From Clostridiales bacterium (GTDB taxonomy: Bacteria; Bacillota; Clostridia; TANB77; SIG350): a DNA stretch of 45,460 nucleotides. The notes below the pieces were generated by a model, which was given only the letters and a program-made list of their open reading frames with translations, searched no databases and was not told where the DNA came from. Positions 19,259 through 29,296 of this stretch are shown piece by piece. The position numbers and the translations under genes were made by a program. Where the stretch lies: the NCBI GenBank assembly GCA_015056545.1, contig SVGE01000008.1, positions 1 to 45,460 on the forward strand. Reading direction: 5' to 3'. Position 1 is the first letter of the stretch, and each line of letters begins with the position of its first letter.

Positions 19259-21145
19259 CTAGTTATTTGCAACTGTTACATTGCCATTAGGCACAAATTC
19301 AAAAGTTGTTTCATTCCAAGTAACAGAAGTAGCTGCCATTTCATTTAATTTACTAGAAGTACCACTTAAAGTAACTGGTTTAACTATATCTATAAACATT
19401 AAGCTATAACTTTCCGGTTCAGCATTAATCTCTATATTACCAGTTAAATTAGGACAACCAGTGAATGTTTGAGTAAGATCTTTTATTCCACTATTAATAA
19501 CAGGAGCTGTTACTATACTTGAATTAGCAAAACAATTTTTTAAACTTATAACATCTTTACCTGCAATTTGACTTAAAATTTCACCATATGTAGATTTTGT
19601 CTTATCAATAACTGCAACGCCCCAACCATCGAAAGTATTATAATCACCCCATTCTATACTTTCATTATGCATACTATATCTATATTCATAATCTCCTTCT
19701 ACATAAATGTCACCCTTTTCAACAGTTTCTGGGAAGGCACCATTTATATATTTAATAGAAGGTTCTGAATAATTACCAAATTCATTATTAACTACACCTT
19801 TATAATAAACACCTGTTTTTGAAACATCACCTCCATCAATAGTTTCAATAGGTTTAACTAATGTAATGCCATTTACTTCTGCAATTTTTTGTTTTAATTC
19901 ATCAGAAATAGAACCAGTAATCCATGTAATCTTTGTTCCTTCTAAAGCCGCACTATAAGACATTTCATCATTAATATTTAAATTAGCATTAATTTCAATT
20001 GTTCCTGTTAAACTAGTACAATTAGCAAAAGCATTATTCATATCAACAATACTTTCTGGAATTACTGGTGCTTGTACTAACGATGTACAGTTGCCAAAAG
20101 TAATAGGCAAAGCTGTTACACTACTTGGAATTTCAGGAGCAACTTTCAATGCTGTACACTCACAAAACGTTTGCATCATATTAGTAACGCCATAAGGAAT
20201 TTCAGGAGCAACTTCTAGCGATGTACAACTAAAAAATGTCAATAACATACTAGTAACACCACTTGGGATACTAGGAGCAACTTCTAATGATATACAATTA
20301 TTATAAGAATACGCCATGCTTTCTACATAAGATGGTAAAGTTGGACTTTCTATAAGATTAGCACAATTAGCAAAAATACTATCAGCAGAAACAATATTCT
20401 TATTATTAATTGTAGTTAAAATGGTACCATAAGATGATTTGGTATTATCTAATACTCTTACTCCCCATCCGTTTAAATCTGACCTTTCTCCCCAAGAATT
20501 CATTTGTGGGTAAATATTGTCAAAACTATAATACATATTATATCTATATTCATAGTCACCATATACATAAACATCACCAATTTGAGGTATTGGGAATTCA
20601 TCACCAGCTGTATATTCTGCTTCAGCTCCAGTATAATTACTAAGTGCATATATCTCTACATCACTTCCATACATATCTACAACCTCATTTCGAGGTACTT
20701 TAACATAATATTTACCACCTTCAGGAATTATTCCATTATGAATTATTGGTAGTATTACTTTTTCTCCTATTCCTAAATCTAAAAGCCATGTACTATATGG
20801 CTCTTCACTTCTACTTCCCAATACTATTTCTCCATTTTGTATTTCTACTAAGTCTTTATATTCTTCTTTAAATTCTGGGATTAATTCTTGTATTTTCTCT
20901 AATGTATCTGCATTTAATAATCCACCTTCTCCATTTCCTGTTGCTAGTTCTATTTGTTTTTCTGCATTCTTTACTGCTAGTATTTCTTGATATATTCTTA
21001 TATCACTTTTGAATACCGCTTCTTTTGCCTTTTCTATTATGCCTCCTTCCATAAACGTAACTATAACTGCAGCAGTTAATATTATTAGTACAATTATTGT
21101 TACTACTAATGCAACAAGTGATATACCTGATGTGCTTTTCTTCAT
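19259..21145 (-). CDS. Pilin-like surface protein with BspA-type leucine-rich repeats
   Basis: 628 residues. The N-terminus, a short Lys-rich stretch then GISLVALVVTIIVLIILTAA, resembles a type IV prepilin segment, but the usual Glu at +5 is Ala. A helical stalk follows to about residue 100. Two copies of an unnamed module (GD-YV-GDYEYRY-M, then WGV-V-D-TKS-YG-IL) occur, the first followed by four 23-residue BspA-type repeats of the form AP-IP--VT-M--TF--CTSL. The protein is likely anchored and exposed at the surface. The first part is nearly identical to the protein at 27835-28911. Transcription passes through a structured leader ending in a terminator before the gene. Confidence 0.82.
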   Translation of the reverse strand: MKKSTSGISLVALVVTIIVLIILTAAVIVTFMEGGIIEKAKEAVFKSDIRIYQEILAVKNAEKQIELATGNGEGGLLNADTLEKIQELIPEFKEEYKDLVEIQNGEIVLGSRSEEPYSTWLLDLGIGEKVILPIIHNGIIPEGGKYYVKVPRNEVVDMYGSDVEIYALSNYTGAEAEYTAGDEFPIPQIGDVYVYGDYEYRYNMYYSFDNIYPQMNSWGERSDLNGWGVRVLDNTKSSYGTILTTINNKNIVSADSIFANCANLIESPTLPSYVESMAYSYNNCISLEVAPSIPSGVTSMLLTFFSCTSLEVAPEIPYGVTNMMQTFCECTALKVAPEIPSSVTALPITFGNCTSLVQAPVIPESIVDMNNAFANCTSLTGTIEINANLNINDEMSYSAALEGTKITWITGSISDELKQKIAEVNGITLVKPIETIDGGDVSKTGVYYKGVVNNEFGNYSEPSIKYINGAFPETVEKGDIYVEGDYEYRYSMHNESIEWGDYNTFDGWGVAVIDKTKSTYGEILSQIAGKDVISLKNCFANSSIVTAPVINSGIKDLTQTFTGCPNLTGNIEINAEPESYSLMFIDIVKPVTLSGTSSKLNEMAATSVTWNETTFEFVPNGNVTVANN

Positions 21146-21210: not shown

Positions 21211-21261
21211 AAAAAGAACTTAAGGCCATATTACTTTTCGTAATATATTCTTAAGTTCTTT
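21211..21261 (-). terminator. Attenuator terminator in leader 1
   Basis: Minus-strand AAAGAACTTAAG pairs perfectly with CTTAAGTTCTTT and is followed by TTG after a T-run. Inside is a second hairpin, ATATTAC/GTAATAT. It lies 66 bases before the ATG at 21145, so it must be bypassed for expression. Confidence 0.85.
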
Positions 21262-21378
21262 ATATTTTTTTGCATGTCAATTAAAGATGTTTTTATACTA
21301 TAAACATCCCCCCCCTAGTATTTAGCACTTTCTGGCTCTTTGTACTGGTTTTATTTGACATTTTTTCACCCCTTTTCT
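21211..21378 (-). ncRNA. Structured leader 1: candidate riboswitch/attenuator
   Basis: On the minus strand the RNA should start near 21378. An outer stem pairs TGTCAAATAAA (21350-21360) with TTTAATTGACA (21275-21285), one mismatch. Within it is a core CAGAAAGTGCTAAATACTAG, eight G (21308-21315) and a hairpin GATGTTT/AAACATC (21286-21308). A terminator (21211-21261) follows. Bases 21239-21334 match leader 2 with three differences, while the stretch between terminator and start codon differs. I do not recognise the motif; it is not GEMM-I (c-di-GMP), preQ1, SAM, TPP or T-box by eye. Confidence 0.7.
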
Positions 21379-21384
21379 TTTTGT

Positions 21385-21413
21385 AATATATCATATGTAG
21401 TTCAAGAGTTCAA
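21385..21413 (-). promoter_or_regulatory. Promoter of leader 1
   Basis: Minus-strand TTGAAC (21408-21413), 17 bases, TATATT (21385-21390), about seven bases ahead of the proposed leader start. Confidence 0.65.
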
Positions 21414-27834: not shown

Positions 27835-28911
27835 CTAATTATTTATATTTTTTACTGTTACATTACCTGAAGGATTTCCAAATTCATCAACTGCTGTTGC
27901 TGCTATTTCAGATAATATAGGGCAAGTTCCTGTTAAAACTATAGGTTGCACTGTACCAGCAAAGCAATCACTATAAGTTAAATTTGTTGCATTAATTTCT
28001 ATTTCACCTGTTAATGAAATACAATCTCTAAAAGTCCATTCTAGGAATACTACACTATTAGGTATTATAGGACCATCTTCTAAGGAATCACAATAAGCAA
28101 AAGCAGCGTACATATTTTCTACACTATTAGGTATTGTAGGCGCTGTTATAATATTAGAATACCTAAAAGCCCATTCCATATTGCGCATAGGCACACCATT
28201 TATTTCTTCTAAAATTATACCATACTCTGTCTTATCTGGATTAAGAATATGCATTGACCAGTAGTTTGAATTGCTACCATATGACCAGATTTCATACCAA
28301 AACATATTATAGCGATACTCATAATCACCATATACATAAACATCTCCTGTATTTACTGTTTCTGGAAAACTATCTCCAGCATATAAAATTTTTGTAGCTC
28401 CACTATAATCACCAACTGCAGTATCTTCTTCAACGCTTACATAATAAATTCCTCCTTCTGGAATTATTCCATTATGAACAGTTGGTGTATTTACTGTTTC
28501 ATCTCCTGTTTTTCCTGCTACTATTCCTAATTCTGCAAGCCATGTACTATATGGTTCATCACTTCTTGCTCCTAATACTATTTCTCCATTACTTATTGCT
28601 ATTAAATCCTTATATTCTTCTTTAAATTCGGGGATTATTTCTTGTATTTCTGCTAATTCTGTTGCATTATATAATCCGCCTTCTCCATTTCCGGTTGCTA
28701 GTTCTATTTGTTTTTCTGCATTCTTTACTGCTAATATTTCTTGATATGTTCTTATATCACTTTTAAATACAGCTTCTTTTGCCCTATCTATTATGCCTCC
28801 TTCCATAAACGTAACTATAACTGCAGCTGTTAATATTATTAGCACAATTATTGTTACAATTAGTGCAACTAAGCTTATACCTGATGTTTTACTATTCTTT
28901 AAATTTTTCAT
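27835..28911 (-). CDS. Pilin-like surface protein, short paralogue
   Basis: 358 residues. After a short basic start come GISLVALIVTIIVLIILTAA and a stalk that is almost identical to the 628-residue protein for about 115 residues, including AVKNAEKQIELATGNGEGG and EPYSTWL. It has one copy of the GDVYVYGDYEYRYNM module, then two or three degenerate 23-residue repeats (APTIPNSVENMYAAFAYCDSL, GPIIPNSVVFLEWTFRDC split across units) and the end GNVTVKN. AGGAGG supports the ATG. It is controlled through a structured leader like its paralogue. No pilus assembly genes are in the window, so true pilus incorporation is unproven. Confidence 0.8.
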   Translation of the reverse strand: MKNLKNSKTSGISLVALIVTIIVLIILTAAVIVTFMEGGIIDRAKEAVFKSDIRTYQEILAVKNAEKQIELATGNGEGGLYNATELAEIQEIIPEFKEEYKDLIAISNGEIVLGARSDEPYSTWLAELGIVAGKTGDETVNTPTVHNGIIPEGGIYYVSVEEDTAVGDYSGATKILYAGDSFPETVNTGDVYVYGDYEYRYNMFWYEIWSYGSNSNYWSMHILNPDKTEYGIILEEINGVPMRNMEWAFRYSNIITAPTIPNSVENMYAAFAYCDSLEDGPIIPNSVVFLEWTFRDCISLTGEIEINATNLTYSDCFAGTVQPIVLTGTCPILSEIAATAVDEFGNPSGNVTVKNINN

Positions 28912-29078
28912 ATTTTTTCCTCCTTTGAATTTTAAATTTGTTATTATACAATTTTATTGTATAGCACTTTTGGTTTTACTTCAACTGTTTTGTTGTATTT
29001 TTTCTTTTTATTTCCTCCCTTCCTCGGCTCTTTATTTTTATTATTGGCAAAATATTTGTTTTTTAATTTTGGCAAAAC

Positions 29079-29131
29079 AAAAGAACCTAAGACTATACTA
29101 CGTTTTCTCGTAATATATTCTTAAGTTCTTT
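29079..29131 (-). terminator. Attenuator terminator in leader 2
   Basis: Minus-strand AAAGAACTTAAG pairs with CTTAGGTTCTTT, with one U-G pair where leader 1 has U-A, and runs into TGTTTT. The inner hairpin is ATATTACG/CGTAGTAT. The 3' half differs from leader 1 but pairing is kept. Confidence 0.8.
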
Positions 29132-29231
29132 GTATTTTTTTTGCATGTCAATTAAAGATGTTTTTATATTATAAACATCCCCCCCCTAGTATTTAGCACT
29201 TTCTGACAGTTTTGCTTAGGTTTATTTGACA
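29079..29231 (-). ncRNA. Structured leader 2: candidate riboswitch/attenuator
   Basis: Same organisation as leader 1: outer stem 29221-29231 with 29146-29156, core CAGAAAGTGCTAAATACTAG, eight G (29179-29186), inner hairpin GATGTTT/AAACATC (29157-29179), then the terminator. Bases 29109-29205 match leader 1 with three differences. The strand between the outer stem and the core differs. Some 165 bases lie between terminator and ATG, AT-rich and without other visible structure. No clear promoter is seen: the leader begins about 50 bases after divIVA, so read-through or a weak promoter is possible. Confidence 0.68.
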
Positions 29232-29264
29232 TTTTCTTACACCTCTTTTTTTGTTAATTTTTAA

Positions 29265-29296
29265 AACAAAGTAAAGAAATTAATCCTTACTTTGTT
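29265..29296 (-). terminator. Hairpin across the divIVA stop codon
   Basis: Minus-strand AACAAAGTAA pairs with TTACTTTGTT (ten bases), 12-base loop, then TTAAAAATT. Only a short T-run, so termination may be partial. Confidence 0.55.

Follow-up and report, generated by a model that had tools for sequence, protein, structure and literature searches.

What does a leader that carries eight consecutive G between a promoter and an intrinsic terminator do in front of a pilin-like gene? We analyzed the 45,460-nucleotide stretch of Clostridiales DNA that holds this leader (hereafter the window), the 1.45-Mb genome to which it belongs (G000) and other genomes. An earlier description made without database searches (the sequence-only reading) had proposed a riboswitch or other attenuator, with control by cyclic dinucleotides as a guess. 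We conclude, with a probability of roughly 0.8, that the leader is a slipped-strand, phase-variable transcription attenuator controlled by translation of a leader peptide. An attenuator, as one half of the earlier proposal had it, is thus very probably present, while the ligand-sensing half falls; the cyclic-dinucleotide guess found no support, the deciding feature being the reading frame.

Two leader copies in the window

The elements named by the sequence-only reading, i.e. a promoter, an outer stem, an inner hairpin and a terminator 66 nt before a start codon, were all present on the minus strand. The promoter (21385-21413) consists of TTGAAC (21413-21408), a 17-nt spacer and TATATT (21390-21385) with an extended -10 (TGA). 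In the outer stem (21274-21361), which covers the leader start codon, ATGTCAAATAAA (21361-21350) pairs with TTTAATTGACAT (21285-21274), and the inner hairpin (21286-21308) is formed by GATGTTT and AAACATC (arms 21308-21302 and 21292-21286). The intrinsic terminator (AAAGAACTTAAG...CTTAAGTTCTTTTT; about 21211-21261) lies about 66 nt ahead of the ATG at 21145. This strand folded at -38.9 kcal/mol, compared to -21.4 for shuffled sequences (z = -5.6), and the 11 of 12 pairs of the outer stem were reached by none of 2000 shuffles. The gene that follows (19259-21145, minus strand) encodes 628 amino acids with a pilin-like N-terminus and an LRR_5-like C-terminal region.

The eight G, described before as part of an unpaired core, indeed lie at 21308-21315. 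The core itself, however, is the end of a short ORF (MSNK..KVLNTRGG..) that enters the homopolymer, and the G-run varies in length among 31 copies of the leader, which had been overlooked. In the window this ORF spans 21293-21361 on the minus strand (MSNKTSTKSQKVLNTRGGMFIV*; Shine-Dalgarno sequence GGGGTG), and the poly-G tract is the proposed slippage switch. With eight G, copy 1 as assembled is in the frame referred to below as OFF: both OFF-frame stops (TAG and TAA) lie in and beside the loop of the inner hairpin, while the TAA closing the ON-frame ORF (G9 class) lies within the terminator hairpin (21231-21233, +28 nt).

A second leader, previously placed at 29079-29231, was found on the minus strand at 29232-29079, but without a promoter: none of the common type is visible directly upstream. 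It comprises a leader ORF (29164-29232; MSNKPKQNCQKVLNTRGGMFII*), again with eight G (29179-29186) and in the OFF frame, and an intrinsic terminator (29079-29131), and is followed by a gene for a pilin-like protein of 358 amino acids (27835-28911, minus strand). This copy may be a silent cassette or may depend on read-through. Directly upstream (29232-29290, minus strand), the apparent terminator of a divIVA-like gene passes straight into the leader. Between terminator and gene (28912-29078, minus strand), as in other loci of this long type such as L005, lies an extra conserved block that in most copies contains an inverted repeat (TTGCCAAAAT..ATTTTGGCAA), a hairpin (TTATACAATaaaATTGTATAA) and a GGAGG to which no start codon can obviously be assigned; the block is missing from a shorter type of locus.

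One leader family in front of one gene family

An 85-nt core of the leader gave about 32 strong matches on 14 contigs of the genome, and in 31 of them the sequence could be followed from start codon to beyond the G-run. The run was 7, 8, 9, 10, 11 or 13 G long in 1, 5, 4, 19, 1 and 1 copies, respectively, a variation among paralogues of one assembly, the collections searched having yielded no second strain; all three length frames occurred, so that the frame is not kept. The sequence-only reading had called a run of eight G striking, and from base composition about 0.44 runs of eight or more would be expected in 1.45 Mb, while nearly all runs of seven or more lie within these leaders. One isolated intergenic G9 (L033:3557-3565, contig C14) is unrelated to them and adjoins a histidine-kinase-like ATPase gene and an HNH-like gene. 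Six contigs (C7, C10, C11, C12, C13 and C16) end in or beside the leader element, as expected for repeats that break assembly.

A promoter accompanied 30 of the 31 copies, matching the pattern TTGAAA/N17/TATATT in 28 and carrying TTGATA in two more. Leaders on the same contig were nearly always co-oriented (9 of the 10 contigs with two or more copies; C1, C6-C13) and mostly lay on the G-rich strand (mean skew of flanks +0.18), so that the G-tracts probably sit on one replication strand. Homologues of MutS are present in the genome.

The RNA structures are conserved as well. The inner hairpin was kept in all 12 sequence variants, with changes from U-A to C-G, the outer stem retained 10 to 12 of its 12 pairs, linking the leader start codon with bases shortly before the terminator, in every copy, and the terminator pairs were kept by one-sided changes. 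As a guess, the outer stem and inner hairpin might make the start codon inaccessible once the pioneer ribosome has passed, or pause the polymerase so that the ribosome keeps up.

Wherever the available DNA was long enough, a pilin-like gene followed the leader (26 of 26 copies). The converse also held: the 29 pilin-like genes of highest similarity in this genome (at least 80% identity) either follow a leader or lie near a contig end with the leader missing or cut. Their products share an N-terminus (..TSGISLVAL(I/V)VTIIVLIILTAAVI..) and are about 90% identical over the first 80 aligned residues, but only 20-40% beyond alignment column 160, with large gaps; their C-termini include BspA-type LRR repeats, and one C-terminal region resembles that of type IV pilins of another genus (G007, see below). 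The structure model of the 358-residue protein combines a long helix at the N-terminus with a beta-rich, LRR-like part at the C-terminus, and it matched LRR proteins only weakly (best E = 0.07). Genes for type II/IV secretion ATPases lie near one leader copy (C13:22441-24428; leader L009 at C13:20620). Pfam and NCBIfam returned no family for the N-terminus. No Peptidase_A24 was found in the genome, for which reason "pilin" stays a likeness here; a role at the cell surface is presumed for these proteins.

The reading frame across the G-run

The leader ORF follows a Shine-Dalgarno sequence (AGGTG or GGGTG) and opens with a start codon (ATG in 27 copies, TTG in 4) and TCA AAT AAA..., and its 46-nt prefix was free of indels and stops in 31 of 31 copies. 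Many changes upstream of KVLNTRGG alter the peptide, which is therefore not strictly conserved, while the frame stays open. The 16 bases before the G-run (AAAGTGCTAAATACTA; 21316-21331 and 29187-29202 in the window, minus strand) are by contrast almost invariant: one copy differs, in the last base, and no synonymous change was seen, while codons just upstream vary freely. This suggests a constraint at the nucleic-acid level or gene conversion; the attenuator model does not require it, and we count it against the model.

The terminator is complete in 30 copies, and each of these was translated with all three G-length classes. In every one, exactly one class stayed open past the 5' arm of the terminator hairpin, to a stop 24-51 nt after the hairpin starts, and the other two stopped 22-40 nt before the hairpin. 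The early stops are nearly always one TAG and one TAA, close together in the inner hairpin. This rule holds over 26 different haplotypes of the sequence after the G-run, including those in which indels are compensated by other G lengths: it is obeyed by copies with an indel next to the run (L021, L030) and by copies with distal indels (e.g. L004, L020, L024, L026-L029), which change the peptide yet leave a frame open, the permissive class being shifted or the C-terminal peptide replaced by that of another frame. A shuffled linker satisfied the rule in 25% of cases, so that the rule alone is not rare and the weight rests on its conservation and recurrence. When the observed changes were relocated on the commonest haplotype, the rule was retained at 0.3-1.0 per haplotype, a product of 4e-6 over 25 haplotypes that overstates independence, given that haplotypes share ancestry and the 30 copies are related rather than 30 independent tests. 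As assembled, 4 of the 30 copies are ON (L005, L008, L021, L026), and ON loci with G9 lie at C7:125141 and C12:117; for most copies in the commonest state, G10, a single deletion would lead to ON.

We propose that transcription from the promoter yields a leader RNA that opens with the short ORF, and that this ORF enters a poly-G tract that would gain or lose bases at replication. In one frame of three, the ribosome would pass the tract into the terminator hairpin and block its formation, so that RNA polymerase would go on to transcribe the pilin-like gene (ON). In either of the remaining frames, translation would end at a stop just past the tract, with over 20 nt still to go to the hairpin; the terminator would form and the gene would be OFF. 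As each variable surface-protein gene would have a switch of its own (about 31 in all), each cell would express a random subset. In Bacillus subtilis, the polymerase has been reported to outrun the ribosome, which would weaken control of this kind and counts against the model.

Ribosome-dependent antitermination selected by G-tract length, and slippage of the tract in living populations, are proposed here: we infer the former because the geometry matches that of the Pil1 locus of Streptococcus gallolyticus. There, GCAGA repeats shift the frame of a leader ORF, a leader stop about 40 nt before the terminator goes with low expression and one in or beside the terminator with high expression, and experiments on the start codon, on the terminator and with chloramphenicol showed dependence on translation (PMC3894217; Danne et al. 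2014). The leaders described here likewise have, as judged from their sequence, an ORF with a ribosome-binding site downstream of a promoter, a repeat inside that ORF with a unit length not divisible by three (poly-G, 7-13), and a long frame that ends in the terminator next to short frames that end well before it (30 of 30 copies, and 11 of 11 in the genera described below). Pil1 and Pil3 share with them the order of promoter, repeat-bearing leader ORF, stem-loop terminator and downstream pilus genes, but use a pentanucleotide at two loci instead of poly-G across one gene family with about 31 loci. Moreover, two of three frames are ON in Pil1 as opposed to one of three here, and the conserved outer stem and inner hairpin are additional; the likeness is one of geometry, and we claim no sequence relationship. 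On the attenuator reading, the leader family represents a mechanism known from one streptococcus, in a variant that uses a homopolymer and spans many loci. In the gut commensal Bifidobacterium breve, slippage of a G-tract at replication also controls pilus expression, but the tract there is internal to the first gene of the pilus cluster, whose two ORF halves it fuses, and no leader attenuator is involved (PMC9187656).

The near-identical leaders and N-termini, the variable C-termini, the mosaic-looking flanks and the promoterless copy 2 would also suit a DNA recombination signal, in which the G-tract and the conserved leader and N-terminus serve to shuffle C-termini. The model for such a signal is Neisseria pilE, with a multi-tract guanine-quadruplex motif upstream of one expressed locus and silent promoterless cassettes. 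We consider this explanation unlikely: it accounts neither for the start codon nor for the frame rule or the terminator, each leader holds a single tract rather than a multi-tract motif of the pilE type, and 30 of 31 copies have their own promoter. It could, however, coexist with a phase-variable attenuator.

Long G-runs can be slippery, and together with the hairpin directly after the run this would allow ribosomal frameshifting or polymerase slippage to keep every gene partially ON at a constant level, with no heritable switch. One run length should then be favoured, yet lengths of 7-13 in all three frames were found, and stops are kept in both OFF frames in 30 of 30 copies, which makes a constant partial expression quite improbable.

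The presence of a leader peptide and a terminator, and of the rare codons AGG GGG GGG (Arg-Gly-Gly) at a fixed place in nearly every copy, recalls attenuation by amino-acid supply, with ribosomes stalled on these codons by a shortage of arginine, glycine or their tRNAs and the stall setting the fold. As in ribosome-mediated attenuators of the trp type, the position of a translating ribosome would decide whether the intrinsic terminator forms. But those take amino-acid supply as input and work through an alternative antiterminator hairpin, while here the input would be the length of a DNA tract and no antiterminator overlapping the terminator was found in the leader folds. As the terminator arms lie more than 40 nt downstream and would be left free by a stall on the G-run, the targets are surface rather than biosynthetic proteins, and the G-run length is not kept in frame, control by amino-acid supply is very unlikely.

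Searches in other genomes and recurrence of the layout

A covariance model, as the sequence-only reading had suggested building, was run over 385 genomes of the order and recovered the family's own genome only, with all copies in front of one gene family. Rfam yielded nothing relevant at gathering or relaxed thresholds, in agreement with the earlier remark that the motif fits no known riboswitch consensus. A riboswitch, in which the stem-enclosed core would bind a metabolite and toggle the terminator, fits the stable fold and the conserved outer stem, inner hairpin and terminator, but we regard it as the least probable alternative, since neither an Rfam match nor an aptamer core of fixed geometry was found, the core forms the last part of an ORF that appears to be translated (Shine-Dalgarno sequence, ATG or TTG, stop-free 46-nt prefix), its length differs by up to six bases among paralogues of one genome, which a ligand pocket would hardly tolerate, and homologues were seen neither before unrelated genes nor in the 385 genomes of the order or in genome_contigs. 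A DNA search of 57 genomes gave a single match (in G004), which we attribute to chance given its unrelated sequence and missing G-run. Two matches of a degenerate KVLNTRGG pattern in distant taxa of genome_contigs were likewise taken as chance, and the pattern was absent from viral_contigs.

Genomes with isolated runs emerged when poly-G was searched for by itself. In one of another family (G003), nine poly-G loci lie at the ends of short ORFs, and a genome of a different genus of that family (G007) has two. Their layout is a Shine-Dalgarno sequence, an ORF, G9 or G10 and an intrinsic terminator, then a gene where the DNA reaches far enough. The covariance model built from the window missed these leaders, whose sequences look dissimilar. 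The frame rule nevertheless held in 11 of 11, one class stopping at +18 to +32 and two at -19 to -38 relative to the terminator hairpin. The downstream genes in G007 encode N_methyl type IV pilins; in G003, three of those tested carry Listeria-Bacteroides (Flg_new) repeats and are secreted, and one is without a Pfam match. Judged by layout, this recurrence is the strongest independent support for the attenuator reading.

The wider picture, which we hold with less assurance than the mechanism at the single locus but still judge likely, is that about 31 pilin-like genes are switched singly by homopolymer slippage in attenuator leader ORFs, giving a random combination per cell, and that at least two other genera of the order place this device before type IV pilins and repeat-containing secreted proteins, where it either had an origin of its own or has diverged too far for a common one to be recognized. 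In the literature that we found, the only described cases of phase variation by a leader-peptide attenuator are two pilus loci in a single streptococcus. If our reading is right, a plain homopolymer runs a genome-wide family of surface proteins in a bacterium with a small genome, and the device recurs with dissimilar leaders in two further genera. The ON or OFF state of each gene could then be read from DNA by counting G's, metagenomes could be scored for the surface proteins expressed in a population, and one could directly track selection exerted by host or phage.

In other genera of the order (G001, G002, G004 and G008; L052-L081), each genome contains 6 to 30 pilin-like matches, none with a poly-G leader; G001 and G002 belong to the sister genus. 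At two loci of G001 (L066, L070), (AC)10 repeats occur within 330 nt before a pilin-like match, possibly another switch. Over 391 genomes of the class, hits of poly-G with a start codon that we read lacked the attenuator layout, at least three having the G-run inside a long open frame; the very high poly-G counts of G056 and G066 were taken as artefact, as the runs read there sit at contig ends. Several runs of G9-G11 near the starts of short ORFs (L125-L128, contig C1 of G121), in a region that is phage-like by eye, are possibly phase-variable phage genes. Poly-G runs within long coding genes (L136 on contig C37 of G111; L137 and L138 in G284) resemble ordinary contingency genes.
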